A stretch of DNA of 64,000 bases. It comes from Thermoanaerobaculia bacterium (GTDB taxonomy: Bacteria; Acidobacteriota; Thermoanaerobaculia; Multivoradales; JAIOJS01). Positions 41,843-56,842 of this stretch are shown here, piece after piece (position 1 is the stretch's first letter; each line of letters starts with the position of its first letter). The notes below the pieces were generated by a model. The model had not been told where the DNA came from. It did not search any database and saw only the letters and a list, made by a program, of their open reading frames with translations. The position numbers and the translations under genes are program-made. The stretch lies in assembly GCA_030429235.1 (NCBI GenBank), contig JAUIDB010000010.1, positions 77,334 to 141,333 of the forward strand. Direction: 5' to 3'.

Positions 41843-41855
41843 CGAGGAGAGTTCG

Positions 41856-42773
41856 ATGCCCTGGTACTTTCTGTCCACCGAGTTCATCATCTACGGTTGC
41901 ACCGTACTGATCATCGCCCATGCCTGGCGGCGGGGACGAGGCGCCGTCGCCACCTTCACCGCGGCATCGTTGTTCGGTTTCACCCTCGAGTTCCTGTCGG
42001 TTCGCGCCGGCACCGACTACTGCTATGGCAAGTTCCTGATTATGGTGCCTCCCTGGGAGGTGGGAGCGAAGATGCCGCTCGCTGCCTGTACCGGGGGCGA
42101 GGCGGTACCGCTGTGGATCATCCTGGGGTGGGGCATCACGGTCTACGTCGCCATGGCGACGAGTTCGCTGCTGCCGATTCCCTGGTGGGTGCGGCCTTTG
42201 CTCGACGGACTCCTCGCCGTCAACATCGACTGGATCATGGATCCTCTGGCGGGCCACCTCGGCTTTTGGACCTGGTTCCACCCCGGTCCCTGGTTCGGGA
42301 TCCCCCTCGACAACTACTTCGGGTGGATCATGACCGTGGCCGGTTTCTCCTTCCTGGTGCGCTGGCTGCAACACAAGGTACCGGCGTCGTGGTTCGGGAA
42401 GTGGCGAGAGGTCGTGCTGCCCTTCATCGCGGGAGCCCTCGGTCCGCTGGTGGTCTTCGGCTCGATCTCGCTCTACCAGGCGGCGGTGGCGCGTGGGGTC
42501 GAGGAGTGGATGTTGGTGGCCGGAACGGTCTTGGCGGCACAGCTTCCGGTTCTGTATTGGGCTCTCAGGGTCCGCGGTGAGGCACCTCCGCAGCGGCTGC
42601 TGGTGGGGGTTTCGGTCTTCTTTCAGCTGCTCTACTCGGGCATGTTGTGGGGAAGTGGTGTCTTCAGCCAGGTTCCCGCTTTGGCGATCGTGGCGCAGGC
42701 GACCCTCTGTCTAGCCGTGCTGGGCTACTCCTGGCCCTATCGCTGGGGATCCTCATCGACCGAGGGTGCGTAG
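41856..42773 (+). CDS. CruF-like carotenoid-biosynthesis membrane protein 1
   Basis: A 305-residue polytopic protein of the carotenoid_synth/CruF family (pfam04240-like; CruF is a carotenoid 1,2-hydratase). Recognisable points: TLEFLSVRAGTDYCYGKF, the DPLAGHLGFWTW segment and GIPLDNYFGWIM, with acidic residues in helices as in the family. About eight hydrophobic segments. CGAGGAGA precedes the ATG. Third gene of the operon behind the cyclase. Its 3' end overlaps the convergent paralogue by 37 bp. Confidence 0.75.
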   Translation: MPWYFLSTEFIIYGCTVLIIAHAWRRGRGAVATFTAASLFGFTLEFLSVRAGTDYCYGKFLIMVPPWEVGAKMPLAACTGGEAVPLWIILGWGITVYVAMATSSLLPIPWWVRPLLDGLLAVNIDWIMDPLAGHLGFWTWFHPGPWFGIPLDNYFGWIMTVAGFSFLVRWLQHKVPASWFGKWREVVLPFIAGALGPLVVFGSISLYQAAVARGVEEWMLVAGTVLAAQLPVLYWALRVRGEAPPQRLLVGVSVFFQLLYSGMLWGSGVFSQVPALAIVAQATLCLAVLGYSWPYRWGSSSTEGA

Positions 42774-43573
42774 AGGCAGAGCAGTGCCGCTAGGACCGGC
42801 ACGCCGATCAGGAAAGGACTGACGACCCGCGTGCCCTCGGGGTAGCCGGCGAAGGTGTCTCCGACCCCCAGGGCGGCGTAGGAGAGGATGGCGGCGGTCG
42901 GCAACCACGCTCGGAGCGGTCGAGCGGGCCGCAGAGCGATCCGTGGCTCGAGGAACCCGTAGGTGGCGAGGATGGTGAACGACGTCAGGACCCACCCCGC
43001 GAAGTTGCGCAGGGGGATGTCGAAGTAGGGGCCGCCATCGACCCAGATCCAAGCCTTGAAGCCATTCGCCATCAGCGGGTCGTAGGCCAGGTCCCAGCCG
43101 GTCATGACCAGGGCGCCGAGGAGCGCCACGATCGGTAGTCGGAAACCCGCTCGGGGAGGAGCTACTGGCCGACGATCGACGATCGAGTTGACGATCACGT
43201 AGACCGGAAAGACCAACATGAAGTAAGCGAGGGGGATGATCAGAGGTACGGGACCCAGTTTCGGTCCCAGGACGTCGGTGTAGTAGTAGTTGCCGAAGAT
43301 CACGCCGGTCCGCTCACCGACGAACTCGAAGAGGTAGGAGATCAGGGCGGTAACGACGAGAAAGGTGGTCGCTCGTGGCCAGCCCAGCAGGAGCACGGCG
43401 CAGGTGAAGGAGAAGCCGGCGTAGACCGGAATCAGGAGGGTCCAGGGCACCCGACCCTCGAGAGGGACTCCAGAGATCGCATGGTAGAGGTGCGCGCTGA
43501 CGTGGATCGTCAACAGCAACAGCATGAAGGCGAGAAGCAGATCCTCGAAGGTGAGCCGCCGAGAGGTGCTCAT
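42737..43573 (-). CDS. CruF-like carotenoid-biosynthesis membrane protein 2
   Basis: A 278-residue member of the same family, closer to its consensus: SYLFEFVGERTGVIFGNYYY, the YPLAYFMLVFP-like helix, DLAYDPLMANGFKAWIW and IPLRNFAGWVLT. About seven helices. The ATG overlaps the stop of the flavin reductase gene (ATGA), so those two are co-expressed from the minus strand. Two different family members placed tail to tail suggests two hydration or modification steps, or an old duplication. Confidence 0.8.
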   Translation of the reverse strand: MSTSRRLTFEDLLLAFMLLLLTIHVSAHLYHAISGVPLEGRVPWTLLIPVYAGFSFTCAVLLLGWPRATTFLVVTALISYLFEFVGERTGVIFGNYYYTDVLGPKLGPVPLIIPLAYFMLVFPVYVIVNSIVDRRPVAPPRAGFRLPIVALLGALVMTGWDLAYDPLMANGFKAWIWVDGGPYFDIPLRNFAGWVLTSFTILATYGFLEPRIALRPARPLRAWLPTAAILSYAALGVGDTFAGYPEGTRVVSPFLIGVPVLAALLCLYAPSVDEDPQR

Positions 43574-44145
43574 GCCGGGGTTCCGAGTCGGTCGATCCAA
43601 GTGGTGAAGCTCGCGAGGAAGTTGCCGAGGCGCTGGACCGTCGCTTCGTCACGAAGGCGGAGTTCGTCGTCGAAGAGCTGGTGGCACGAGCCGATCAGAA
43701 CCATTGGCTGCGCCATCACCAGCGCATTCAGGGGGGCGAGGTTCTGGCGGAGCTGGTACTGGGCAGCCCGGGTTCCCAGGCGCCCGGGGGTGGCTCCGAG
43801 CAACGCCACCGGTCGTCCGTCCAGGGGATGGGGTTTCGGCGGTCGGCTCAGCCAGTCGATCGCGTTCTTCAACAGGGCGGGAGGTCCGGAGTTGTATTCG
43901 GGAGTCACCAGCAGGAGTCCGTCGGCGCGGCTGACCGCCTCGCGGAGGGCGACGACGCCGTCGGGCAGGCCCCCGGTTTCGACGTCACCGTCGTAGAGCG
44001 GGACCTCCCGCAGGTCTGGCAGCAGCCATTCGACCTCGGGGGGAGCGATCTCCATCGCCGCCCGCAGCAGGGCCTGATTGAACGATCTTTGGCGCAAGCT
44101 GCCGGCGAGGGCAGCGAGGCGGAGGGGGGACGAGGTGTGCGGCAC
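43570..44145 (-). CDS. NADPH-dependent FMN reductase-like flavoprotein
   Basis: A 191-residue flavodoxin-fold enzyme. LAALAGSLRQRSFNQALL binds the FMN phosphate and LLVTPEYNSGPPALLKNAIDW is the family signature loop. Such enzymes reduce quinones, azo dyes or free FMN with NAD(P)H. It starts at GTG 44145 behind CCAGGAGA. First gene of a two-gene operon with CruF-like protein 2, so it might supply electrons for a carotenoid modification; that is inference. Confidence 0.9.
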   Translation of the reverse strand: MPHTSSPLRLAALAGSLRQRSFNQALLRAAMEIAPPEVEWLLPDLREVPLYDGDVETGGLPDGVVALREAVSRADGLLLVTPEYNSGPPALLKNAIDWLSRPPKPHPLDGRPVALLGATPGRLGTRAAQYQLRQNLAPLNALVMAQPMVLIGSCHQLFDDELRLRDEATVQRLGNFLASFTTWIDRLGTPA

Positions 44146-44278: not shown

Positions 44279-44308
44279 TTGACGTTCTGGGACAGGGTCT
44301 TCTATTCT
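44279..44308 (+). promoter_or_regulatory. Sigma70-type promoter of the cytochrome/FHA operon
   Basis: TTGACG (44279-44284) and TATTCT (44303-44308) are separated by 18 bp. Transcription would start near 44315, giving a leader of about 75 nt before the ATG at 44389. It is the best -35/-10 pair noticed in the window. Confidence 0.55.
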
Positions 44309-44337
44309 GGCCGCACCAGCTCTAACAATGGCAGACG

Positions 44338-44368
44338 CCAGACTAGGTCGAAGACCGACGGTGTCTGG
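44338..44368 (+). other. Leader hairpin before the cytochrome operon
   Basis: CCAGAC (44338-44343) and GTCTGG (44363-44368) are perfect arms; inside, GTCG and CGAC can pair around a small loop. It ends 7 nt before the GGGAGG ribosome-binding site, so it could affect translation or mRNA stability. Confidence 0.35.
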
Positions 44369-44388
44369 GGTGCCGGGAGGTAGATGAG

Positions 44389-46215
44389 ATGGCCGTGGCC
44401 AAGGGATCGATCAGCACTCCGAGTCGGATCGGCGAGCAGTGGGCGAGGAATCGTGGATGGGGTGGACTTCTCGCCTGGGTGGTTTGCGCCCTCTTCGTCG
44501 CGGCAGGGGCCGGAGCCGCGCTCGCCGACGACGAAGGCGAGCAAGAAAAACCGCTCACCGCCGATGAAGAACACGCTCGGATCTTTTCCGAGAATCGCTT
44601 CCCGTCCGCCAACACGTGCGCGACCTGTCACCCGGACCACTACCGTGAGTGGTCGGTATCGCCTCACGCCTACGCCCAGATGAGCCCCGTGTTCAACGCT
44701 TTCCACGGCACCGTTCTCAAGTTGACCAACGGCACCAACGGGGACTTCTGTATCCGTTGCCACACCCCGGTTGGCATGAACCTCGAGGAACCGGAGTTCA
44801 TGAGCAACATGGACCGCCACCCGACCTCGCGCGAAGGCGTGACCTGTCTGGTTTGTCATCGCCTGAACCAGGCCTACGGAAAGATCAGCGGTCGCCTGGC
44901 GATCGTCGAGGGCGACATCTTCGAACCGGTCTACGGTCCGAGCGGAAACGACGAGGTGGCACGCGTCATCGACAGCGACGAGTTCGTCGTCAACACCGTC
45001 AGAGGTCAGGCGGGACGAGCGATCCACACCAAAGCGGAGCCTTTCTTCCAGCTGACGACCTCGGGATTCTGCGCCACCTGCCACGACGTGAACCTGGTCA
45101 ATGGCTTCCGGCTCGAAGAGGCCTTCAGTGAGTTTAAGACCTCACCCGCCGCCAAGGCGAACGTCTCTTGTCAGGACTGTCACATGGGGAAGACCCCGGG
45201 CAAGGTCTCCGGCTACGCCGAGGCCCCGGCAGCCATGGTTGGGGGCAAGCCGACGCAGCCTCGAAAACGCACCGACCACATGTTCATCGGTCCCGACTAC
45301 TCGGTAATTCATCCCGGCATCTTCCCGCACAATCCGCGGGCGGCCGAACTGGCGACCATCCGGGAGTGGCTGACCTTCGACCACGAGGCTGGCTGGGGTA
45401 CCGACGCGTTCGAGGATTCCGTTGCCGAGGACTTCGAGTTCCCGGAACGCTGGCGTTCCATCGACGATCGTTACGATGCCCGAGACATCCTCGACGACAA
45501 CTTCGCGCTCCTGGCCGAGGCTCACGAGGCGCGACGCACGGTACTGCGTAACGGCTACCAATTGGGTGAGATTCGCGTGGAGCGTTCGGACTCTCGCCAG
45601 GGACTCGATTTCCGGGTCCAGGTGCGCAACGCCACCGATGGCCACGGGGTGCCGACCGGCTTCGACGCCGAGCGACTGGTGTTCCTGCAGGTCGAGGTAC
45701 GGGATGCCAACGACGAGGTCGTGTTCCAGTCTGGCGACCTCGACCCCAACGGTGACGTTCGGGACTCCCACTCGCTCTACGTGCACAACGGTGAACTGCC
45801 GATCGACGATCAACTGTTCAGCCTGCAATCTCGTTTTATCGTACGGATGGTCCGAGGTGGAGAGCGCGAGCAGGTCCTGGCCGTGAACTACTCGGATGAC
45901 CCCCTGCCCTTCCTGCGACCGTCCACCACATCGACGATCCTGACCGGCCGCCCGCGAGGGGCGCGCAAGCACAAACAGAACATCGAGCCCAATGGTCAGC
46001 GCTGGGCCGAGTACTCGGTGGAACCGAGTGCTCTGCGGGGTCCGGGTCCCTACACTCTCCGGGTACGACTGATCGCGGGCATGATCCCGGTCAATCTGAT
46101 CGACGCCATTAAAGGCGTCGGCTTCGACTACTACATGAGCCCCCGGCAGGTGGCGGAGAAGGTGGTCGAAGGGCATCAGATTCTCTGGGAGAAGGAGATG
46201 GAGGTGGACCTGTGA
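44389..46215 (+). CDS. Exported pentaheme cytochrome c
   Basis: A 608-residue periplasmic multiheme protein. The signal peptide or anchor (LLAWVVCALFVAAGAGAALA) spans ~28-48. Five CxxCH heme sites lie in the first ~270 residues: CATCH, CIRCH, CLVCH, CATCH and CQDCH. The C-terminal half has no heme site and looks beta-rich (~385-600). There is no CxxCK or HAO-type pattern, so it is not NrfA or a hydroxylamine oxidoreductase. It is the first gene of an eight-gene operon and overlaps the barrel gene (GTGA), which suggests a cytochrome-porin partnership. GGGAGG precedes the ATG. Confidence 0.88.
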   Translation: MAVAKGSISTPSRIGEQWARNRGWGGLLAWVVCALFVAAGAGAALADDEGEQEKPLTADEEHARIFSENRFPSANTCATCHPDHYREWSVSPHAYAQMSPVFNAFHGTVLKLTNGTNGDFCIRCHTPVGMNLEEPEFMSNMDRHPTSREGVTCLVCHRLNQAYGKISGRLAIVEGDIFEPVYGPSGNDEVARVIDSDEFVVNTVRGQAGRAIHTKAEPFFQLTTSGFCATCHDVNLVNGFRLEEAFSEFKTSPAAKANVSCQDCHMGKTPGKVSGYAEAPAAMVGGKPTQPRKRTDHMFIGPDYSVIHPGIFPHNPRAAELATIREWLTFDHEAGWGTDAFEDSVAEDFEFPERWRSIDDRYDARDILDDNFALLAEAHEARRTVLRNGYQLGEIRVERSDSRQGLDFRVQVRNATDGHGVPTGFDAERLVFLQVEVRDANDEVVFQSGDLDPNGDVRDSHSLYVHNGELPIDDQLFSLQSRFIVRMVRGGEREQVLAVNYSDDPLPFLRPSTTSTILTGRPRGARKHKQNIEPNGQRWAEYSVEPSALRGPGPYTLRVRLIAGMIPVNLIDAIKGVGFDYYMSPRQVAEKVVEGHQILWEKEMEVDL

Positions 46216-47645
46216 GCATTCGTAGCTGGGCAGCGGTCCTTTCGGCCTTCCTTCTCGGAGTGGGTTCGGCTGGCTGGGCTTCGGAGGGCTCCGCAACGCC
46301 CACCGCCGGAGGTGGAAGCGGAGGAGAGAAGGAGCACCATGCCGACGGCCACAGCAGTAGCCGAATCACCGACGAAGTGATCCCGCTCGATCTCGAGAAC
46401 TTCCCCGAGCGCCCTCGGCCGCCGATCGAGCTCGGCAACCACTTCTTGGGAACCGGCACGCTGTGGCCGGGATTCGAGTTGCCGACCGGGGCAGTCTGGC
46501 AACCGGCACTCTTCGCCTTCGGTACCTGGCGCAACGCCGTACAGACCCTCGACGACGGGTTCGATACTCGGACGGAGTTCCGGACGCGGATGGACCTCTT
46601 CCTCAACCTGCAGTTGTCGGGGAGTGAACGGATCATCATCGGCGTGCGACCGTTCGACGAAGACGGCGCGTTCACCCGCTACGTCTTCGACGGGCCCGAG
46701 GACTCGGACTTCTACGACGAGCTGGATCTGGGGATCGAAAGCCTCTTCTTCGAAGGGGACTTTGGAGAGATCTTCCCGAATCTGTCGCGGGATGACTTCC
46801 GGCGCACCGACTACGGATTCTCGGTGGGGCGGCAATCGCTGATCTTCCAGGAGGGTTTCGTCCTGGGAGACGCCCTCGACTCACTAGGAGTGACGCGCAA
46901 CACGCTGCTGCCGAAAGGGACGAGCAACTTTCGGGTCACCTACCTAGGGGCCTGGGACAGCATCCACCGGAACGGCGTCGAAGATGAAGATGCCCAGCTC
47001 TTTGGTCTCTTGACGTCGACGGACTTCCGCCGCTCGACGGTCGATGTCGATGCGGTCTACGTCCAGAGCGACGCGGGACTGGGCGATCAGATCGTGGTCG
47101 GAGCCAGCGCGGTGCAGCGTTTCGGTCACATCAATACCACGTTCCGTCTGGTCGGAAGCGCTGGGTTGGACGACTTTGCCGGGGCCGCGGGGGATGGCGG
47201 GATCTTTACCAGTGAAGTCTCCTGGACTCCGCACCACACCGACAATCATGCGTACATCAACGCCTTCGTCGCGGTCGACGACTTCTCGCCGGCGGCTCGG
47301 GCGCCGGGAACGGGCGGGGTGCTGTCGGGCATGGGGATCGGCTTCTCGGGCTCTGGTTTGGGATTCCCGGGACCGCTGGATTCCTCGTCTCGCGACGTGG
47401 TCGGTGCGGTCTTCGGCTACCAGAAGATCGCTCACGACCTGCGCAGCCAGTGGGTGTTCGAGGTCGCTTCGCGGATCGGACTGGACGACGCCGTCACCGA
47501 TTCGGTGGCGGCTACCGTGCGCTGGCAGCGGGCGCTGCGAAAGCACTACGTGGTGGTGTTGGATGGGTTCGGCGGTTGGGTCGACAGCGGTGGCGGCGAC
47601 GATACGTTGTACGGAGCCAGGCTCGAGCTGCTCACCAAGTTCTGA
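46212..47645 (+). CDS. Predicted outer-membrane beta-barrel
   Basis: A 477-residue exported protein. The signal peptide ends near GWASEG. A Gly/His-rich linker (GGGSGGEKEHHADGHSSS) precedes a barrel of alternating strands from ~70 on, such as RTRMDLFLNLQLSG and YGFSVGRQSLIFQEGFV, and the chain ends in Phe (ELLTKF), the usual BAM recognition end. It resembles alginate-export or phosphate-porin type barrels more than MtrB; the exact family is uncertain. Starts at GTG 46212 overlapping the pentaheme stop. Placed between two multiheme cytochromes, it could house or contact one of them in the outer membrane. Confidence 0.75.
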   Translation: MSIRSWAAVLSAFLLGVGSAGWASEGSATPTAGGGSGGEKEHHADGHSSSRITDEVIPLDLENFPERPRPPIELGNHFLGTGTLWPGFELPTGAVWQPALFAFGTWRNAVQTLDDGFDTRTEFRTRMDLFLNLQLSGSERIIIGVRPFDEDGAFTRYVFDGPEDSDFYDELDLGIESLFFEGDFGEIFPNLSRDDFRRTDYGFSVGRQSLIFQEGFVLGDALDSLGVTRNTLLPKGTSNFRVTYLGAWDSIHRNGVEDEDAQLFGLLTSTDFRRSTVDVDAVYVQSDAGLGDQIVVGASAVQRFGHINTTFRLVGSAGLDDFAGAAGDGGIFTSEVSWTPHHTDNHAYINAFVAVDDFSPAARAPGTGGVLSGMGIGFSGSGLGFPGPLDSSSRDVVGAVFGYQKIAHDLRSQWVFEVASRIGLDDAVTDSVAATVRWQRALRKHYVVVLDGFGGWVDSGGGDDTLYGARLELLTKF

Positions 47646-47738
47646 CGCGAGGTCGACAACCGAGGGGCGGGCCGTCGCCGGGGCGGGCAGCTGGGGTACC
47701 ATGTCCTCGAAGTATTGGAACCAGTAGGGCGAGGTGTG

Positions 47739-49805
47739 ATGCAGCGTGGGCAGCGGCGACGACTCCTGATCTCGATGGGCCTAGCGGCCGGGATCTGCTT
47801 CTCGGTTTCGGCCAGTCTCGAAGCCCAGTCCGACGCTTCCTCTGACTGGAACGCCTTGACCCTGCGGGATCCGGCCAAGGTGGTCACGGCCGAAGCGTGC
47901 GGCGAGTGCCATGCTCTAGAAAAGGAAACCTGGCTGACGACGCCACACGCCACTGGGTTCAAGACCCTGCATCGGCGGGAATCCGCCGAGACGATTGCCG
48001 GTCGTATGGGCTTCAAGCTGATCAAGCGGGAGAGCCTCTGCCTCAAGTGTCACTACACGGCGCAGGTGGAGAAGGAGCAGTTGCGGGCGGTATCTGGCGT
48101 CTCCTGCGAGTCTTGTCACGGTGCCGGTCGGGATTGGATCGACATCCACAACAACTACGGTCCCGGTGCCGACGTCGCGACCGAGACCGAGGCGCATCGG
48201 GAACAGCGCATCGACGCGAGTCGGGCGGCCGGAATGCGCCGCCCCAGCGAGATCTACGATACGGCCAAGAGCTGCTTCGAGTGCCACACGGTGCCCGAAG
48301 AGCGGTTGGTCAACGTGGGCGGGCACTCGACCGGAAGCCTCGACTTCGAACTGGTCGAGCGGAGTCAGGGAGAGATCCGCCACAACTTCCTCGGATCGTT
48401 GACCGGCGGCTCGCGAGACAACCGAGTCAGTTCGCCCGAACGGCGCCGCCTCCTCTACCTGGCAGGGCGTCTACTGGACCTGGAGTACAGCCTGCGGGGG
48501 CTGGCGGTAGCCACGAGGGAGGATACCTACTCGAAGGCGATGAGCCGGCGGATTCGCACTGCGGTGGCCGAGGTGCGGGCGATTGCCGCGAGCGCGGGGA
48601 TCGGGGAACTCGACGACCTGTTGCAGTCGGTTCGGTCCGCCGACCTCACCGTCGGGCAGAGTCAGGCGCTCGAGGCGCTGGCCGCGACGGTGGGAACCAC
48701 CAATCGGCAACTCTTGGCAGGCCACGACGGTAGCCGGCTGGCGGCTCTCGACCCTCTGATCGCCGGACAAACGCCGCCGGATCAATGGGCCGAGTCCGAG
48801 GACCAGGGACCGGACGATGAGGTCGACTCACTGTTCTTCGATCCTCCGGAGGCAGAAGGCGAGGTCGCGACTACTGGGACAACTGCCGCGGTCGACGACG
48901 GGATCCCCGCGGAGGGACCTGTCAACCGCTGGCTCCGGCCGCGCTCGAACCATCGTTCGCTGGGGCCTGGCGCCTGTTCGGGCTGCCACGGCGACCAGAA
49001 CGCGTGGTGGTTCGACGACCGCCACTTCGCTTCAGCGGAGCCGTTCTTCGATCAGAGGCCCGAAGCGGTGCGGATCGCGCGACTCTACGGCGTGCGTCCG
49101 GGGTCGATGGCGCGTGGGGACGCCCTGTGCATGGATTGCCACGGCTCGGTCGTCTCCGGCAAGGAGCGGCGCGAAGTACTGGATGGCGTCGGCTGCGAGT
49201 CGTGCCACGGGTCCGCGGCCGACTGGCTCGAACCACACAAAGAGGGAGATGCTTCGTTGGGCCGCAATCGCCCGGGATTCGTCGCGGCTCTGGGTCTGGG
49301 GAAGCGGGACCTGGGACGACTCGACGTCCGCGCCGAGACTTGTGCTTCCTGCCACTACGTGACCGACCCGCGGCTCCTGTCGGCGGGCCACCCGTCGGGG
49401 GAGGGCTGGGACTTTGCAGCGGCGGTTTCGGAGATCGTGCATTGGGATCAGCCGGTGGAACCGAGGTCGGAGCTCACCGCGGCCTGGCGAACGGTCCAGG
49501 GCCAACGCGGACCGGTGCCGACGGTGCGGCTGGCGCGCCTACCGTCCGGTTCGGTACCGACCGCCGACGGTGCCGTGAGCGGAGGACGCTCGGCGCGACG
49601 TTCTCCGCGTCCGGCTCGGACGCTGAACCCGCGCCCGCGCGGCGGTGGTATCGCCCCCGTGACCGAGGAGGTACTAGACTTGGGCCCGGTTCCACCGTTT
49701 CCCGTCGTCGACCCGGATGCGTCGGTCGAGGAGGTATTGCTGATCCTGCGTCAGAGACTAGAGCTACTGTACGGAATCGTGGCCGCGGCCGAGGGGGAGC
49801 CATGA
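47739..49805 (+). CDS. Octaheme cytochrome c built of two tetraheme repeats
   Basis: A 688-residue exported cytochrome. Signal peptide ~8-30 (LLISMGLAAGICFSVSASLEAQ). The first repeat (~53-200) has CGECH, CLKCH, CESCH and CFECH; the second (~405-560) has CSGCH, CMDCH, CESCH and CASCH. Matching flanks show an internal duplication: VSCESCHGAGRDW against VGCESCHGSAADW, and VGGHSTG against SAGHPSGEGWDF. The repeats resemble cytochrome c554-type tetraheme units. A helical, acidic stretch without hemes joins them. The ATG is preceded by GGGCGAGG. The stop overlaps the next gene (ATGA). Confidence 0.9.
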   Translation: MQRGQRRRLLISMGLAAGICFSVSASLEAQSDASSDWNALTLRDPAKVVTAEACGECHALEKETWLTTPHATGFKTLHRRESAETIAGRMGFKLIKRESLCLKCHYTAQVEKEQLRAVSGVSCESCHGAGRDWIDIHNNYGPGADVATETEAHREQRIDASRAAGMRRPSEIYDTAKSCFECHTVPEERLVNVGGHSTGSLDFELVERSQGEIRHNFLGSLTGGSRDNRVSSPERRRLLYLAGRLLDLEYSLRGLAVATREDTYSKAMSRRIRTAVAEVRAIAASAGIGELDDLLQSVRSADLTVGQSQALEALAATVGTTNRQLLAGHDGSRLAALDPLIAGQTPPDQWAESEDQGPDDEVDSLFFDPPEAEGEVATTGTTAAVDDGIPAEGPVNRWLRPRSNHRSLGPGACSGCHGDQNAWWFDDRHFASAEPFFDQRPEAVRIARLYGVRPGSMARGDALCMDCHGSVVSGKERREVLDGVGCESCHGSAADWLEPHKEGDASLGRNRPGFVAALGLGKRDLGRLDVRAETCASCHYVTDPRLLSAGHPSGEGWDFAAAVSEIVHWDQPVEPRSELTAAWRTVQGQRGPVPTVRLARLPSGSVPTADGAVSGGRSARRSPRPARTLNPRPRGGGIAPVTEEVLDLGPVPPFPVVDPDASVEEVLLILRQRLELLYGIVAAAEGEP

Positions 49806-51466
49806 GCGGCAACGATCCCGGCCGGACCATGTTGCGTCGCGTGGCGCAGCATCGGGATCGCTGGAGTTCCTACGGTGGTCAGACCGGCTTGACCTGGCTG
49901 TCCGAGAAGCTCTCTCCGAGCGAACTGCGCGAGTTCGAGGTCTTCCGAGAGTTCACTGACGGCTTCCTGGAACGGCTCAGTCCCGACGTCGCAGTGGCGG
50001 CGTGGGACCGCGATGTCGTGCTCTTCGAAGAGGGCAGCTACATCGATGTCGCCTTCTTCCTGATCGACGGCGAGGTGAGCCTGTCGGTCGGGGCGGACGA
50101 GGACACCGAACCGACGGCGGAGAACCCGATCTTCGATGGGGATCGGACGTATACCGGGAGTCGACCCCAGATTGCGGCGCCCAGCGAGGTCGACGACGTC
50201 GAGAAGACGGCGATGATGCGTTTGCCCGAGCCACGACGGCCGTCGGCCGACGAGCACCGGATTCCGATGCTGGCCACCGCCGATGTCGACTTGCCGATGG
50301 GGGGCAGTGCGCGCCTCGGTCCTGGGGACGTCTTCGGTGAGATCGGTGCCTTGAGCGGCTGGCCGCAATCGGTCACAGCTCGCACCACGACCGCCTGCCG
50401 CCTCCTGCAGGTCCGGCTGCCGGCCCTGCGCCGCATCAAGAAGAAGTCGGTTCTCTGGAAGGAGAAGCTCGACGGGGTCTACCGAGCGCGCTCCTTGGTG
50501 TCGCAACTGCAACGCACACCGCTCTTCGACTCGTGCGACGAACCGACGCTGCGTCGGCTCGCCCGTGAAGTCGAGCTGGTTTCGGCGGAGCCCGACGAGG
50601 TGATCGTGCGCGAGGGGCAGAAGGCCGATTCGTTGTATCTGGTCCGTTCGGGTTTCGTGAAGCTGCAGCAGCGGCTCGGCGACGGAGAGGTCGCGGTCTC
50701 GTACCTTTCGAAAGGCATGACCCTGGGGGAGGTCGAGCTGTTGGTGGCCCCCGGCGGCGAGTGGTCGGTGTCGGCGGTTTCGGTCGAGTACTCGGAATTG
50801 GTGCGAATTCCACGCAAGGTCTTTGCGAGCCTGCTGGCCCCTCTGCCCGGGGTCGAAGAGGGTCTCTGGGAGGTGGCGACCGCGCGGATCCAGGAGACCG
50901 GCCGGAATCGACGGGACCTTTCCGGGTCGCAGGCCATTCAGGTCGCTCTCGATACCGGCCTGGTCGAGGGGAGCAGTGTCCTGGTGATCGATCTCGATCG
51001 CTGTACCCGCTGCGATGACTGCGTTCGAGCTTGTGCCGCGACCCACGGGGGGCGCCCTCGATTCGTTCGCGAGGGCGGCAAGATCGGCAACCTCATGATC
51101 ACGCGCTCCTGCTTCCACTGTCGGGATCCGGTCTGTCTGGTCGGATGCCCTACCGGTGCGATCCACCGGGCCGGCTTCGGGGAAACGGTCGAAGTCAGCG
51201 AAGAGATCTGCATCGGCTGTTCGACCTGTGCCAACAACTGTCCCTACGATGCGATCGTCATGCACGACACGGCCGAGAAGTGGCCCGACGACATGGTACC
51301 GTCGTCACTGCGCGGGGAGGATCGTTTCGTGGCCAGCAAGTGTGATCTCTGCCGCGATACCGGGCACGGTCCGGCCTGCGTCGAGAACTGCCCTCAGGGC
51401 TGTGCCTTCCGCGTGGGATCGGTGGAGGAGTTCCATTCCTTGTTGGACTTCGGAGAGGGCGAATGA
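49802..51466 (+). CDS. Double cyclic-nucleotide-binding-like domain fused to 4x[4Fe-4S] ferredoxin
   Basis: A 554-residue cytosolic protein. Two cNMP-binding-like beta-rolls (~60-210 and ~240-350) precede an NrfC/DmsB-type electron-transfer module (~395-540). The first roll has a ~70-residue polar insert and a phosphate cassette GDVFGEIGALSGWPQSVTART that keeps the ribose Glu but has Gln where the phosphate Arg usually sits. The second cassette is more degenerate. The ferredoxin part has four cysteine sets: 401/404/407/411, 437/440/445/449, 470/473/476/480 and 514/517/526/530. In NrfC-like proteins this module passes electrons to or from a membrane quinol subunit; the next gene is a cytochrome b. 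Overlaps both neighbours by ATGA. Confidence 0.9.
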   Translation: MSGNDPGRTMLRRVAQHRDRWSSYGGQTGLTWLSEKLSPSELREFEVFREFTDGFLERLSPDVAVAAWDRDVVLFEEGSYIDVAFFLIDGEVSLSVGADEDTEPTAENPIFDGDRTYTGSRPQIAAPSEVDDVEKTAMMRLPEPRRPSADEHRIPMLATADVDLPMGGSARLGPGDVFGEIGALSGWPQSVTARTTTACRLLQVRLPALRRIKKKSVLWKEKLDGVYRARSLVSQLQRTPLFDSCDEPTLRRLAREVELVSAEPDEVIVREGQKADSLYLVRSGFVKLQQRLGDGEVAVSYLSKGMTLGEVELLVAPGGEWSVSAVSVEYSELVRIPRKVFASLLAPLPGVEEGLWEVATARIQETGRNRRDLSGSQAIQVALDTGLVEGSSVLVIDLDRCTRCDDCVRACAATHGGRPRFVREGGKIGNLMITRSCFHCRDPVCLVGCPTGAIHRAGFGETVEVSEEICIGCSTCANNCPYDAIVMHDTAEKWPDDMVPSSLRGEDRFVASKCDLCRDTGHGPACVENCPQGCAFRVGSVEEFHSLLDFGEGE

Positions 51467-52308
51467 ACGCGGCAGTTTCCGGTGGCGGCAAGGTGGGGCG
51501 GCGAAGGTTCGGGTTGGGACGCCTGTTTCTCCTCCCGGCACTGGCGGCGCTGGTCTGGGTTCCGTTCCAGGTGCGATTCTTCGCCGCACTCGACCCCGGC
51601 AATGCCTGGGGCATGGGGTACGGGATCGCCGCCGCGGTGCTCCTGGTCGTGGCGATGGCCTACGGGATCCGCCGCCGATTCCAGCGGGTCGCGACCCGAC
51701 TCCGGGTCGGGCGCACCGAGACGTGGCTTCACATCCATCTCGGCATCGGGGCCCTGTTTCTGGTGTTGGTGCTGGTCCACAGCGGGCTCCACCTACCGCA
51801 GGGAGTACTGACCTGGTGGCTCTTTCTGCTCTCCCTCTGGGTGGTGGCGAGCGGAGTGGTGGGCTGGGCTCTGCAGCAGTGGATCCCGAAGTCCCTCTCC
51901 GGTCTCGAGACCGAGGTGTTGTACGAGCGCATCCCGAGCTTGTGCCGCGACCTACAGGAGCGTGCTGCCCTGCTCGCTGCCACCTGTCAGGAGCCGGTCC
52001 GACTGCTGCACGAGCGACTCTTCGAGCCGGAACTCCGACAGCCTCGACGACGCTTCCGGTACCTGATCGACAAAAGCGGCGGGCGCAATCTGCAGTGGCG
52101 TGAGGTGGCCTACCTGGCTGCGGTGCTCGACGAGGCCGAGACCGAACGGTTGGAGGAGATCGAGACGATCGTCCGCACGAAAATCGAACTCGACGTGCAC
52201 TACACGCTGCAGCCCCTGTTGCGCTGGTGGTTGGTCCTCCACCTCCCGGCGGCGGTCGCCCTCACGGGGCTCGTCGTGGTTCACGTCTTGACGGTGGTGT
52301 ACTACTGA
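51463..52308 (+). CDS. Diheme cytochrome b-type membrane subunit
   Basis: A 281-residue protein with five hydrophobic helices (~18-42, 50-69, 88-112, 115-140, 252-281) and a charged cytosolic-type loop (~142-245). Histidines spaced 14 apart occur in two helices: H92/H106 and H260/H274. That geometry fits two stacked b hemes with bis-His ligation, as in NarI-, formate dehydrogenase- or b561-type subunits. It likely exchanges electrons between the ferredoxin module of the preceding protein, the quinone pool and periplasmic cytochromes. Overlaps its neighbours at both ends (ATGA and TGATG). Confidence 0.82.
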   Translation: MNAAVSGGGKVGRRRFGLGRLFLLPALAALVWVPFQVRFFAALDPGNAWGMGYGIAAAVLLVVAMAYGIRRRFQRVATRLRVGRTETWLHIHLGIGALFLVLVLVHSGLHLPQGVLTWWLFLLSLWVVASGVVGWALQQWIPKSLSGLETEVLYERIPSLCRDLQERAALLAATCQEPVRLLHERLFEPELRQPRRRFRYLIDKSGGRNLQWREVAYLAAVLDEAETERLEEIETIVRTKIELDVHYTLQPLLRWWLVLHLPAAVALTGLVVVHVLTVVYY

Positions 52309-53888
52309 TGAACCCAGAAGGGCCCAAGCGCCAAGGGGATCGTGGCAAGGGTTGGTTCGGTCGTTCCGGCCTCCAGGTGGCCAAGGCCTACGTCAACCCT
52401 CCGCCGCGCAAGCGCATGCTGTGGGCCGGGATCCTGGTGGCGGCCGTTCTCGTCGGACTCCTGGCGGCCGATTTCGGATTTCGCGAGGCGCAGTGGGTAT
52501 CGAACGGCCCCCTCTCTTCGGCCCACGCCCGGCTCGAGAACGACTGTTCCTCCTGTCATGACCCACTCTCTCGGCAGGTGACGGTGGAGAACTGCACCCG
52601 CTGTCACGAACGGCATGGAGACGAGTTGGGAGTCTACTCCTTCTCCTCGCACTACCTGTATCGGACCGAGGACTTTCAGCGGGTCGCGGTACAAGACGGC
52701 GAGGTGTCCTGCTTCTCGTGCCACCCCGAACACAACGGTCGGCAGGCTCTCCGCACGGTGGTCGAAGACCGTCTCTGCATCACTTGCCACGATGAGGGCA
52801 GCTTCATCGCCGGTCATCCCGAGTTCGAGGTGCTGCGCGACGCCATCCCAGATCGCCCGGGCATCGCGTTTCCCCACGTTCGGCACGTGCGCGAACTGCT
52901 GGCGGAGAACGAGTTCCTGGAACTGGAGCAGACCTGTCTGACCTGTCACAACCCAGAGGACGACGGGATGGGGTTCCGGGCCATCGAGTTCGACCGTCAT
53001 TGCGATTCCTGCCATCTGACTCGAGGGGTCGCGACGGCTCGGATGGCGATCACGGACGGGGAATCGGTCGGAGTGGAGGATCTGGCCACGATCCGCGCCC
53101 AGGGGCGACCGGGTACCGAGTGGAGCCAGTTCTTGAGTCCGGCAGAGTTCCGGGAGGCTGGAGGGCGTCTCATCAAGACGCCGCTCTACCACGAGGACCC
53201 CTGGGTGCTGTACAACCTGCGTCGTCTGCGCGGTGAGTTGTACGAAGACGGAGGGATCGCAGAACTATTGGTCGTATCTCCCGAGGCCCCGCCGGCCCAG
53301 GTTCGCGAGGTCTACCGGGAGGCGGTGACAACCCTGGAACGCTATGTCTTGGGGCTTCGGGGACGGCCAGAACCGGCCATCCGCCAGGAACTCGAGAAGG
53401 TCGAAGAGTTGTTGGACACTCTGCGACGACGCCTGGAGGATCCGCACACGACGCTCGACGAGAGTGGCTTGCTGCTCGCCCTGCAGCAGCCGAAGGAAGG
53501 GGTGTCGGCGGAGCGCCGACAGGAGATCGAGTCGCTGGTCGAGGAACTGACCCAGGCCTGTGCCGTGTGCCACCAGGTCGACCGTGCCACCATCACCCGC
53601 GTGCAGCGGTCCCAGAAAACCTACCTGCGCGCCGACTTCGACCACCGGTCCCATATCCTGGAAACCAACTGTCTCGATTGCCACGCTCAGATCCCTATCG
53701 CCGAGGCGGTGGCCGATCTTTCGCTACCGCTGCCACCAGAGGATCGCTCGTCGGTACAGAACCTGCCCGGCATCGAGACCTGCCGAACCTGTCATACTCC
53801 GGACCTCGCGGCGGACAGCTGCACCACCTGTCACGCGTTCCACCCTGACCTAAGCCGTCGTTCGGAGTTGCTGCACTATGTCGACTGA
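52308..53888 (+). CDS. Membrane-anchored decaheme cytochrome c
   Basis: A 526-residue protein with one N-terminal helix (~37-57, LWAGILVAAVLVGLLAADFGF) and no obvious cleavage site, so it is probably tethered to the inner membrane facing the periplasm. Ten CxxCH sites: CSSCH, CTRCH, CFSCH, CITCH, CLTCH and CDSCH in the first half; CAVCH, CLDCH, CRTCH and CTTCH near the end, separated by a ~170-residue helical stretch. The first half resembles cytochrome c3/c7-type arrays (FPHVRHVREL before a heme), and the second repeats FDHRSH. The frame extends back to 52227 inside the cytochrome b gene; ATG 52308 shares one base with that stop. Confidence 0.88.
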   Translation: MNPEGPKRQGDRGKGWFGRSGLQVAKAYVNPPPRKRMLWAGILVAAVLVGLLAADFGFREAQWVSNGPLSSAHARLENDCSSCHDPLSRQVTVENCTRCHERHGDELGVYSFSSHYLYRTEDFQRVAVQDGEVSCFSCHPEHNGRQALRTVVEDRLCITCHDEGSFIAGHPEFEVLRDAIPDRPGIAFPHVRHVRELLAENEFLELEQTCLTCHNPEDDGMGFRAIEFDRHCDSCHLTRGVATARMAITDGESVGVEDLATIRAQGRPGTEWSQFLSPAEFREAGGRLIKTPLYHEDPWVLYNLRRLRGELYEDGGIAELLVVSPEAPPAQVREVYREAVTTLERYVLGLRGRPEPAIRQELEKVEELLDTLRRRLEDPHTTLDESGLLLALQQPKEGVSAERRQEIESLVEELTQACAVCHQVDRATITRVQRSQKTYLRADFDHRSHILETNCLDCHAQIPIAEAVADLSLPLPPEDRSSVQNLPGIETCRTCHTPDLAADSCTTCHAFHPDLSRRSELLHYVD

Positions 53889-54588
53889 CCCTCAGCCCCA
53901 GGCCCGCCTCTTCTGCCGCGGTGGGCGCCTCAAGGGAACCACCTTCAACATCCAGGGTGCGGCGGTCCTGGGGAGTGACCCCAACTGCCAGTGCCGGGTC
54001 GACGATCCTTCGGTGGCGGCCCAGCATGCCCGGCTGCGGTGGGACGCCGACCAGGATCGCTTTGTCCTCGAAAACCTGGACAGTGGCCAGGGCACCGCCG
54101 TGGACGGGGCGATGGTACGAGGGGAGCGCGCTCTCGACCGATTGCATGTGATTACGCTCGGCGACGTGTCGTTCGTCTACCAACGCACCGAGGTCGCATC
54201 GGTGTCGCCTCCGCCGAGTCCCAAGACCGAACGACTCGACTCGGTGCCGACGATCCCGGTGGGGTTGCTGGCGATGGAGGGCAGGGCCGAAGAGCCGCGG
54301 TGGGTCCTGGAGGTTGAGATCGACGGCGAGTGGTTGCGCTTCGACCTGTCCGAGGGAGAGAACCGAGTGGGACGGGTGGCCGCAGATGTCGTCTTGCCGA
54401 GCCGAGAGGTGTCCCGCAATCACGCGCTGATCCTGGTGAGCGGGCGCGAGGTCCGGATTCGAGACCTGGGGAGCACCAACTTCACCTTTCTCAACGGCGA
54501 GCGCCTGTTGGTAGAAACGCGCGTCCCGCTGGGAGGCAAGCTCGCGTTCGGGCCACATCCTGCCCGCATCGTGGCCGAGAACAACTGA
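53878..54588 (+). CDS. Double-FHA-domain protein
   Basis: A 236-residue soluble protein of two forkhead-associated domains. FHA1 (~10-103) is degenerate: the usual GR is GS (32-33), although S45/H50 remain. FHA2 (~142-236) has an intact phosphothreonine site: GR at 165-166, SRNH at 179-182 and the NG turn at 206-207. The linker (~105-130) is rich in Ser, Thr and Pro and could itself be phosphorylated. It overlaps the decaheme gene by 11 bp. It probably docks a phosphorylated partner in this electron-transfer system. No Ser/Thr kinase is encoded nearby. Confidence 0.9.
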   Translation: MSTDPQPQARLFCRGGRLKGTTFNIQGAAVLGSDPNCQCRVDDPSVAAQHARLRWDADQDRFVLENLDSGQGTAVDGAMVRGERALDRLHVITLGDVSFVYQRTEVASVSPPPSPKTERLDSVPTIPVGLLAMEGRAEEPRWVLEVEIDGEWLRFDLSEGENRVGRVAADVVLPSREVSRNHALILVSGREVRIRDLGSTNFTFLNGERLLVETRVPLGGKLAFGPHPARIVAENN

Positions 54589-54604
54589 AGGAGAAGCCCG
54601 CACC

Positions 54605-56842
54605 GTGAGTGAGACGACCGATCCGATCCTCGACGTCCTGGTGGCTGGTGGCGGTCCGGCGGGGACTGCGACCGCCTTCCGGGCTTCCGAACTCGGGCTG
54701 AGCGTGTTGGTCATCGACTACGACGACCTGATGAAGCGGATTCGCGACTACTCCAAAGACAAGCTGATCTTGCCGTCCTTCGGCGGCGGTGATGCGATGG
54801 CCTTCCCAGCCGGTGGCGATCGGATCGAGAGTCTCTGCTTCGCTCCTATCGACAAAGACGAACTCTGTCAGCGCTTCAAGCGCTGCTACCGCGACTACGA
54901 CATCCAGCATCGGGTCGGCGTCGAGCTGACCGGCCTGGAACGGGCGGACGAAGAGACGTGGACAGTGCAGGCCTGGGACCACAACGAGCGTCGAGAGGTC
55001 GCCTACCGGGCTCGGCATGTGGTGATCGGAATCGGCCGCGGGGTCCCGCGCCGTTTCGATATCCCGGGGAACACCGACGGGATCGCCTTCCGACTCTCCG
55101 ATCCGAAGCAGTACATCGGTGCCCCCGCCTGTGTGATCGGCGGCGGCACCTCGGCGGCGGAGGCGGTGATGGCGATCTCCCAGGCCAAGGTCGAAGCTGG
55201 TGACGCGACCGACGTCTACTGGTCCTACCGCGGAGACAAGATGCCGCGGGTCTCGAAGGCCTTGGCCGAGGTCTTTTTCGAGACCTACGTCGGCAACGGG
55301 AACATCAGGTACTACCGGCGCAGTGAACCGGTCGCCGTAGTCACCGGCGACGACAAGGAGGAGTACCTCTCGATTCGGGTCGACCGCCGCTCCCTGGCCG
55401 GGCGTCCGATCGAGACCTCGCAGCTCGAGTTTCCGAAACGCGGTTGCATCGCCTGTATCGGTGAGGATCTGCCGGAAGACTTGCTGCGGAGCCTTGGGAT
55501 TCAACGGGTCGAAGGAGGCCCCAAGGGCAAGAAGAGGATGGTGGTCAACCGGTACCTGGAGACGGTGCAACCGCAGGTCTATATGGTGGGCGACCTTCTC
55601 TCTCAGGCCTACCTCGAAACCGATGACTTCACGGCCGACCCGGCTGGGTTTCGGGAGGTTCGCCACCGCGGCAACATCAAGTCGGCGCTGCGGGATGGAG
55701 TGCTGGTGGCGCAGGTGATCCGACAGCGCCGGGACGGCGTCGAGGAGATCGATTGCCGGGTCGAGGATGGCGTCGAGGACCTCGAACGCTCGGCGGCGAT
55801 CGCCGTCATCAGCGGCGTACAGGACGTTCGCGACCTCTCCCGCGCCGCCGCGGCCGGAGGAGCGACCCTGGTCCACATTCTGCGGGATGGGGTTCAGGGA
55901 GAGGAGTTCCCGTTGCGAGTCGGTGGCACGACGACCATCGGCCGGACCGGCTGTGGGGTGAGTTTCCCCGACGATAGCCTCCTGTCACCTCGGCACGCCT
56001 CGATCGAATGGACCAAAGAAGGGGAGGTCCTGCTGCAAGACGACGGCGGGGCCACCGGCGTGTTCCTGAGGGCTACGGCCGGTGAGAAGATGCCGATCGA
56101 GGCTGGATCCCTGGTGGCGGTCGGGCGGCAGTTTCTGGTGGTGCAAGACTCCTCGGTGCCGACACTGGTGCACTACGACGCGTCGGGGCTCGAGAAGGGA
56201 CGTATCGAGGTGGGGTCGTCTCCGTTGGTGGTCGGCCGCGACGCGCCCGGCAAGGTTCTCGATGCCAATGACATGGGCCTGTCGCGCCGCCACTTCTCGC
56301 TCTCGTTCGAGAACGGCCAGCTGCTGATCAAGGACCTCAAGAGCATGAACGGGACCTTCCTCAGGGTGGCGGATCCGACACCCGTCACGCATGGGGCGAC
56401 CTTTCGTGTCGGTGGCCAACTGCTGGCTTTGCGACTCGATCCCGACGCGGTGCTCGACACCGCGCCGCCCCCTCCAGCTCGTCGCTCCTCGGTCGAGCTC
56501 CCGGCGGTTGACACGGATCCGGCGCTTCCCCCTGCTCCCTCGACGCTCGAGGTGGGCGCCCCGGCGGTTACCTTCCGTGGAGGCGGCACCTTCCCGGTTC
56601 CGCCTGGCGATACCATCTGCGACGTGGCCGAAGAGCAGGCCGCTGGGATCAAGGCCGAGTGCCACTCGGGGATCTGCGGCAGCGATCCGGTGCGGATCCT
56701 CTCGGGCCGAGAGAACGTGCTCAACGAACCGGGAGATCAGGAGTCCGAGACGCTGGAGGACCTCTGTGATCTGGAACCGGGAGAGTGCCGCCTGGCCTGT
56801 ATGCTGAAGGTCAAGGGACCGGTCGAAGTCGAGATCCTGTAG
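54605..56842 (+). CDS. FAD/NAD(P) oxidoreductase - FHA - FHA - [2Fe-2S] ferredoxin fusion
   Basis: A 745-residue fusion. Residues 1-390 are a two-dinucleotide flavoprotein: AGGGPAG (FAD) at 14-20, VIGGGTSAAEA (NAD(P)) at 177-187, and MVGDLL near 327-332, as in thioredoxin-reductase/YpdA-like enzymes. FHA1 (~422-514) has GR 446-447 and SPRH; FHA2 (~520-610) has GR 544-545, SRRH 560-563 and NG 582-583. After a Pro-rich linker, residues ~653-745 are ferredoxin-like: C686, C691 and C732 fit the plant-type pattern, but the third ligand is Asp694 (CGSD), with extra C721 and C728. GTG 54605 follows AAGGAGAAG. Last gene of the operon and likely its NAD(P)H entry point. Confidence 0.88.
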   Translation: MSETTDPILDVLVAGGGPAGTATAFRASELGLSVLVIDYDDLMKRIRDYSKDKLILPSFGGGDAMAFPAGGDRIESLCFAPIDKDELCQRFKRCYRDYDIQHRVGVELTGLERADEETWTVQAWDHNERREVAYRARHVVIGIGRGVPRRFDIPGNTDGIAFRLSDPKQYIGAPACVIGGGTSAAEAVMAISQAKVEAGDATDVYWSYRGDKMPRVSKALAEVFFETYVGNGNIRYYRRSEPVAVVTGDDKEEYLSIRVDRRSLAGRPIETSQLEFPKRGCIACIGEDLPEDLLRSLGIQRVEGGPKGKKRMVVNRYLETVQPQVYMVGDLLSQAYLETDDFTADPAGFREVRHRGNIKSALRDGVLVAQVIRQRRDGVEEIDCRVEDGVEDLERSAAIAVISGVQDVRDLSRAAAAGGATLVHILRDGVQGEEFPLRVGGTTTIGRTGCGVSFPDDSLLSPRHASIEWTKEGEVLLQDDGGATGVFLRATAGEKMPIEAGSLVAVGRQFLVVQDSSVPTLVHYDASGLEKGRIEVGSSPLVVGRDAPGKVLDANDMGLSRRHFSLSFENGQLLIKDLKSMNGTFLRVADPTPVTHGATFRVGGQLLALRLDPDAVLDTAPPPPARRSSVELPAVDTDPALPPAPSTLEVGAPAVTFRGGGTFPVPPGDTICDVAEEQAAGIKAECHSGICGSDPVRILSGRENVLNEPGDQESETLEDLCDLEPGECRLACMLKVKGPVEVEIL

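Follow-up and report, generated by a model that had tools for sequence, protein, structure and literature searches.

A candidate NAD(P)H-fed trans-envelope electron conduit with FHA domains among its carriers in a Thermoanaerobaculia bacterium

The window considered here (the whole stretch of DNA analysed, 64 kb of contig JAUIDB010000010.1 from a Thermoanaerobaculia bacterium) contains an operon of eight genes, g1 to g8, which spans positions 44389-56842 on one strand. With moderate confidence, this operon is read as a trans-envelope conduit that would draw on cytosolic NAD(P)H and be gated by Ser/Thr phosphorylation. The strongest evidence that its core is fed by NAD(P)H is that three NAD(P)H-oxidising modules, unrelated to one another, are found at one and the same place. 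To this are added, as read from the sequence, the gene set and its order, the cofactor ligands, the conserved residues of the forkhead-associated (FHA) domains, the exchange of g8 for a NuoEF module, the loss of an Arg from the cyclic-nucleotide-binding (CNB) domains, a partial proximity of kinase genes and a set of Thr motifs. An earlier note on this DNA had proposed both FHA domains inside or beside redox carriers and a path from the cytosol to the outer membrane; both are supported.

In the proposed route, electrons would pass from cytosolic NAD(P)H to the FAD and then to the [2Fe-2S] cluster of g8, from there to the four [4Fe-4S] clusters of g4, and through the inner membrane by way of the two b hemes of g5. 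They would then reach the membrane-anchored decaheme g6, the periplasmic octaheme g3, and finally the pentaheme g1 and the barrel g2 at the outer membrane. As to the gate, a Ser/Thr kinase would phosphorylate a Thr of the CNB1 insertion of g4, of the g7 linker, or of both; the FHA domains of g7 and g8 would bind the phospho-Thr and either bring the flavoprotein onto the ferredoxin or keep it away; a PP2C phosphatase would reverse the process. We infer the direction of the electrons, the docking, the cue sensed by the kinase and the outer acceptor. A switch on such a route would make sense, because electron exit from NAD(P)H through b hemes would dissipate the membrane potential.

Gene set and heme content

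The products of the eight genes, all on the plus strand, are predicted as follows.

g1, 44389-46215, plus strand: secreted pentaheme cytochrome c of the PHC/c552 kind, 608 residues, five CxxCH sites
g2, 46212-47645, plus strand: outer-membrane beta barrel, 477 residues, C-terminal Phe, 4-base overlap with g1
g3, 47739-49805, plus strand: periplasmic octaheme cytochrome of two tetraheme c554-like halves, eight CxxCH sites; PF13435 in two stretches (E 1.4e-24)
g4, 49802-51466, plus strand: cytosolic CNB-CNB-four-cluster ferredoxin; PF00027 twice and Fer4; ATGA overlap with g3
g5, 51463-52308, plus strand: diheme cytochrome b with two HX13H pairs (H92/H106 and H260/H274)
g6, 52308-53888, plus strand: decaheme cytochrome c with an N-terminal membrane anchor, ten CxxCH sites; PF14522 in four stretches
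g7, 53878-54588, plus strand: FHA-linker-FHA protein; PF00498 twice; C-terminal FHA domain canonical, N-terminal one degenerate here
g8, 54605-56842, plus strand: NAD(P)H-FAD oxidoreductase with FHA-FHA and a [2Fe-2S] domain, ligands C686, C691, D694 and C732

Start and stop codons overlap at the g1/g2, g3/g4, g4/g5, g5/g6 and g6/g7 junctions, and the only gaps are of 93 bases (g2/g3) and 16 bases (g7/g8), which confirms the earlier description of eight same-strand and mostly overlapping genes. The end of the stretch given then, 56842, stands, and its start was corrected from 44279 to the g1 start at 44389. Genes were called with a simple codon-usage caller, and some starts lie too far upstream. 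Other corrected starts are those of g3 (47739, an ATG, being more likely than 47715), g4 (49802) and g6 (52308). The host draft genome consists of 92 contigs and is 100% complete.

The count of 23 CxxCH sites over 5-, 8- and 10-heme cytochromes was likewise confirmed: g1 holds 5, g3 holds 8 and g6 holds 10, against 0.012, 0.006 and 0.028 expected by chance in composition-preserving shuffles (0.054 for all eight proteins together). The fusions described before were found by Pfam as well, with two cNMP_binding domains and Fer4 in g4, two FHA domains in g7, and Pyr_redox_2, two FHA domains and Fer2 in g8. No whole-protein curated family of NCBIfam was reached above its cut-off by any of the eight proteins.

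NAD(P)H input and the FHA-less sister branch

A search of the phylum with g4 gave seven further genomes with a distant core and no g8, and a search centred on one of these FHA-less genomes found the core in 37 of 250 genomes of that genome's class. The FHA-less set used below (n=25) comprises 20 neighbourhoods and five of the first seven genomes; the relatives are mostly metagenome-assembled genomes (MAGs), and the loci are not independent of one another. In these Acidobacteriota neighbourhoods the core g4-g5-g6 is present and no FHA domain is encoded. Most of the loci carry a NuoE-NuoF fusion (2Fe-2S_thioredx, Complex1_51K, SLBB and NADH_4Fe-4S) directly upstream on the same strand, and have g4 extended at its N-terminus by a fused NuoG-like Fer2/4Fe-4S segment, as assigned by Pfam on two loci and by tblastn on the rest. 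A c554-like tetraheme cytochrome, an LVIVD multiheme cytochrome and a barrel are among the neighbours of this core.

The position of g8 in the window is thus the position that the NADH-oxidising NuoEF module takes in the FHA-less branch. Since NuoEF with the NuoG-like Fer2 segment replaces g8 there, g8 is taken as the NAD(P)H input, in support of the NAD(P)H-linked entry that the earlier note had suggested. A third input form was seen at L089:15234-16916, where a reductase of the FNR type (FAD_binding_6, NAD_binding_1) carries a fused FHA domain; a Fer2-like stretch lies nearby in another frame, and the locus is either a third input type or an assembly frame error. In one FHA-less locus (L093:13611-19899) the core adjoins genes that, by eye, resemble membrane subunits of group-4 hydrogenase or Nuo.

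For the flavin domain of g8 the closest curated family is YpdA (TIGR04018; E 6e-14, score 51 against a cut-off of 340). Position 19 is A, G, F or M in 43 sequences, and the active-site Cys in the GGGPCG of YpdA is not there. The third ligand of the Fer2 domain is Asp in 32 of 35 sequences and Cys in the other three; an Asp at the third [2Fe-2S] ligand is also found in E. coli SdhB.

The ferredoxin g4 contains 16 cluster-ligand Cys in four groups, as in four-cluster ferredoxins of the DmsB/NrfC/HydN type, and none of these varies among the relatives whose sequence extends over them (29-30 sequences); its best NCBIfam match is DmsB-type (E 9e-17), below the cut-off of that family. The diheme cytochrome b of the earlier note is borne out by g5, whose His 92, 106, 260 and 274 are invariant in 26/26 sequences and lie on two helices of the AlphaFold (AF2) model, as in diheme cytochromes b. 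This model has a predicted local distance difference test (pLDDT) score of 85.9. Its VIA matches to b561, SpNOX, STEAP and bc1 cytochrome b (Z 8-10.5) stay under the caution level for helical bundles; Foldseek gave no significant match, and a PDB sequence search with the g5 profile gave nothing useful. Relatives of g6 have 9-10 hemes. The NrfC/NrfD-like (NrfCD/Psr-type) quinol module considered before was rejected, because no NrfD-like polytopic subunit was matched by Pfam or NCBIfam among the eight proteins.

Control by phosphorylation or by a nucleotide

In both g7 and g8, the second FHA domain (FHA2) has the Arg, Ser and Asn of a phosphothreonine-binding FHA domain. In g7, FHA2 residues R166, S179, H182, N201 and T203 are conserved in nearly all relatives, and in g8 Arg545, Ser560 and Asn582 are kept in 42/42. 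The sites in g4 and g7 that bear on control are listed below.

50126-50149, plus strand: PIFDxxRT motif in the CNB1 insertion of g4, a candidate phosphothreonine site
50336-50380, plus strand: CNB1 phosphate-binding cassette of g4, Arg replaced by Gln (GEIGALSGWPQSVTA); Gln in 27/29 FHA-bearing relatives
50726-50770, plus strand: CNB2 phosphate-binding cassette of g4, Arg replaced by Trp; Trp in 28/30 FHA-bearing relatives
54217-54237, plus strand: SPKTERL Thr motif in the g7 linker, a weak example of the linker KT-x-hydrophobic motif

The Arg of the CNB cassette binds the phosphate of cyclic nucleotides. In CNB1 it is present in 0/31 FHA-bearing g4 sequences (Gln, Val or Ile instead) versus 25/25 FHA-less ones, where the cassette reads YPRSAT throughout; the CNB2 Arg is kept in 23/25 FHA-less sequences. 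A nucleotide signal of the canonical form, which the earlier note had included in the gating, was therefore rejected as unsupported for the window system, both CNB domains of which are without the phosphate-binding Arg.

Phosphorylation control of the window system, the other half of that gating proposal, is predicted on genomic evidence that supports it: the conserved phospho-Thr-binding residues, the Thr motifs, and kinase or phosphatase neighbours in a third of the loci. Of the 42 FHA-bearing loci, 13 have a gene for a Ser/Thr kinase or a PP2C at a distance of at most 3 kb from the core; of the 25 FHA-less loci, none has (Fisher p 0.0012, with the relatedness of loci ignored). In L036, g8, PP2C and kinase follow one another on the same strand, the junctions being a 4-base overlap and a 6-base gap; this order recurs in L031, and L062 has a kinase frame that overlaps g8 on the same strand. 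The PIFDxxRT motif occurs in the CNB1 insertion of g4 in 22/29 FHA-bearing relatives and 0/25 FHA-less ones, and the linkers of g7 (35 in number) contain 40 KT-x-hydrophobic motifs against 6.2 +/- 2.3 after shuffling, a post hoc count, as the Thr motifs were spotted by eye and then counted on the same set.

Several observations, beside the post hoc nature of these motif counts, weigh against this interpretation. None of the roughly 60 kinase-domain matches in the window genome is near the operon; 29 of the 42 FHA-bearing loci, the window included, have no nearby kinase; and the window copy of the Thr motif is among the weaker examples. In the g4 tree, FHA-bearing and FHA-less ferredoxins separate on one branch (support 100/100). 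The signal swap therefore counts as a single event and the correlations lack independence; with one transition, cause and effect cannot be read from them. Taken with the fact that FHA folds can bind partners without phosphate, and with the loss of Arg, Ser and Asn from the N-terminal FHA domain (FHA1) of the window g7, the 29 loci without a nearby kinase could mean that the FHA domains are phosphorylation-independent scaffolds or contacts, and that it is by chance that kinases lie nearby in genomes rich in them. Such an explanation is considered improbable. The FHA2 domains of g7 and g8 retain the phospho-Thr residues in nearly every relative, and FHA1 of g7 is not degenerate in most of them; kinase and phosphatase genes are missing next to the FHA-less cores (0/25) and in some FHA-bearing loci overlap g8; and the non-homologous FNR reductase of L089 also bears an FHA domain at the same place.

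More tentatively, and with slightly less than even confidence, the loci may represent a class of NAD(P)H-to-surface conduits, widespread and not yet described, with two forms on one core. One form would combine a cyclic-nucleotide-binding ferredoxin with a NuoEF input; in the other the nucleotide pocket would have been lost and control taken over by FHA domains and Ser/Thr kinases, with phosphosites evolving in the ferredoxin and in the FHA linker.

Outer module and direction of electron flow

The pentaheme g1 matches cytochrome c552 (PDB 5ze8) with a phmmer E of 2.8e-13; one segment of the alignment is significant alone (i-E 3.6e-8), the other two being weak, among them the C-terminal beta domain. 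Its match to the ExtKL model (NF040886) is weak (E 6e-8) and fails the curated cut-off, at 31.7 bits versus 250. Identity to most other Acidobacteriota copies is 71-79%. The outer-membrane barrel of the earlier note is supported by the AlphaFold model of g2, which has about 18-20 strands and a mean pLDDT of only 60, the C-terminal half being better, and which resembles MOMP/Occ porins (Foldseek E 1.6e-11). No family match was found for g2, and a PDB sequence search with its profile gave nothing useful. As in porin-cytochrome systems of the Mtr type, an outer-membrane barrel is here encoded together with multiheme cytochromes. The low confidence of the g2 model counts against the proposed conduit, as does its predicted size, which is below that of MtrB-type sheaths.

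The resemblance of g2 to substrate porins is, in turn, what would be expected if the operon encoded a regulated periplasmic reductase, in which g2 admits a small soluble acceptor, g1 reduces it, and g8 to g6 supply the electrons. The high conservation of g1, the most conserved of the genes (75-79% across families of the order), is enzyme-like, and an isolated g1-g2 pair exists in L069. This alternative is nevertheless judged rather unlikely, given that other lineages have, in place of g1-g2, a barrel with a 9-10-heme LVIVD cytochrome of >1000 residues that looks like a surface protein, and that PHC relatives have been linked to extracellular electron transfer (PMC11976967). Still less weight is given to a chain that runs inwards, from an outside donor such as Fe(II), Mn(II) or a partner cell via g1-g3, g6, g5 and g4 to NAD(P)H, with phosphorylation deciding when. 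NuoEF-type modules are generally reversible, the core is present in a Troglogloeales MAG (L049), and a haem-copper oxidase, hence an available electron acceptor, is encoded in 25 of 26 cluster genomes. Against this, an uphill transfer would require energy, and no site for its coupling was seen, the outer cytochromes suit both directions, and no donor oxidase (Cyc2, MtoA) turned up, no search aimed at them having been made.

Distribution and conservation of the core

The earlier note had asked for conserved synteny across Acidobacteriota and other phyla, and this was found. While g8 is present in 6/297 sampled Acidobacteriota genomes, a scan of a genome contig collection gave at least 41 loci, labelled as Acidobacteria/Acidobacteriota, KSB1, Ignavibacteria, Chlorobi, Rhodothermia, Gemmatimonadetes, Troglogloeales, Planctomycetota, Deltaproteobacteria and Binatia MAGs. 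Most of the listed loci with a long enough contig have the order g4-g5-g6-g7-g8, which is conserved in MAGs of Acidobacteriota, KSB1, Ignavibacteria/Chlorobi, Rhodothermia, Gemmatimonadetes and Troglogloeales. Pairwise distances of g4 to g8 also co-vary (r 0.53-0.73, Mantel p 0.001). Because the gene order is conserved in several phyla, the eight genes are regarded as one functional unit. Among the matches listed, g1-g2-g3 precede the core in Acidobacteriota, Rhodothermia and one Gemmatimonadetes MAG; Ignavibacteria/Chlorobi/KSB1 and one Vicinamibacteria MAG have a different outer part, made up of a barrel, a large cytochrome with LVIVD repeats and as many as 10 hemes, and a smaller cytochrome of the c554 type. 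The outer part can thus be exchanged, and what several phyla keep is the core g4-g8.

The spread of g8 is patchy, since it was found in 2/247 sampled genomes of the phylum of L036. Four Deltaproteobacteria/Binatia genomes (L054, L059, L060, L061) carry g8 without any genomic match to g4, a further point against the proposed reading, from which it follows that g8 also has another job. A haem-copper oxidase gene was found in 25/26 searched genomes with g8; the hosts are therefore probably capable of oxygen respiration, and the conduit is likely to be conditional.

Some additional observations concern single loci. One Acidobacteriota genome (G172) has two FHA-bearing copies of the core on separate contigs (L019 and L020), with 10 and 9 hemes in g6. 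The g1-g2 pair without g3-g8 (L069:8090-12608) lies beside a CRP-like regulator and a gene that, by eye, looks like a RIC/hemerythrin type, a hint of use under oxygen or nitrosative change. In the window itself, a large gene at 37715-41842, about 2.5 kb upstream of the operon, combines, by eye, domains like those of class III nucleotide cyclases with an ATPase-like part and a tail rich in repeats. Between it and the operon (41673-44145) are two adjoining convergent membrane proteins that look alike and resemble, by eye, carotenoid-biosynthesis/CruF-like proteins, and an FMN-reductase-like gene on the minus strand (43570-44145).

Significance and comparison with known systems

In known extracellular conduits the electrons come mostly from the quinol pool, and control is considered to be mainly transcriptional. 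If the tentative two-form reading holds, this would be the first respiratory-type electron wire in which the carriers themselves read protein phosphorylation. A conduit fed by NAD(P)H and gated post-translationally would give bacteria a fast electron outlet, help to explain the large cytochrome clusters of oxygen-respiring Acidobacteriota and their relatives, and link bacterial Ser/Thr kinases to the redox state of the cell. The form with an intact nucleotide pocket and the form with FHA domains would constitute a natural experiment in the exchange of control signals.

No characterised complex with the same subunits was found in PDB sequence searches or in the open-access literature, in which no paper joining FHA domains with multiheme or extracellular electron transfer was found either; the main text of a large survey of outer-membrane cytochromes names neither FHA nor Acidobacteriota (PMC11475568). 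Neither of the two outcomes that the earlier note named as refuting its proposal, an unconserved gene order or a characterised complex of this make-up, was obtained. As far as the tests reach, an inner module that is fed by NAD(P)H and has FHA control built in has not been described before. The outer module has relatives among known kinds. ExtKL, Gsu2801 and related cytochromes form one pentaheme family that is structurally homologous to c552 and for which kinship with the archaeal nanowire cytochrome AvECN has been proposed; in Geobacter, extKL is adjoined by an outer-membrane porin gene and two multiheme cytochromes (PMC11976967). This ExtI-ExtN cluster (ExtKL, the ExtI porin and ExtM/ExtN) has the same pentaheme-porin-multiheme set as g1-g2-g3. 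Unlike the window, it contains no FHA domain, CNB-ferredoxin, cytochrome b or NAD(P)H flavoprotein as described (PMC11976967). The alignment of g1 with the penta-heme c552 of Thermochromatium tepidum (PDB 5ze8) places it with the PHC family.

The inner module shares features with several other systems. The NADH-input module of complex I (NuoEF with the Fer2 segment of NuoG) feeds the same ferredoxin-cytochrome b-decaheme core in the FHA-less branch, whereas the window uses an unrelated FHA-bearing flavoprotein and its cluster has no proton-pumping subunits. NOX/STEAP and cytochrome b561 are, like g5, transmembrane carriers with two hemes held by paired His, although their fold matches to it are weak and under the caution level for helical bundles (Z 8.4-10.5); in contrast to them, g5 would be fed by separate Fe-S and flavin proteins and would pass electrons to a decaheme, and it has no sequence match above cut-off. 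The bacillithiol disulfide reductase YpdA, the closest curated relative of the g8 flavin domain, differs from g8 by its active-site Cys and by the FHA and Fer2 domains that g8 has in addition. Finally, GarA/OdhI of Actinobacteria are kinase-controlled FHA regulators of redox metabolism, whose FHA domains those of g7 and g8 match in sequence; in the window, by comparison, the electron carriers themselves have FHA domains fused to them or encoded alongside.

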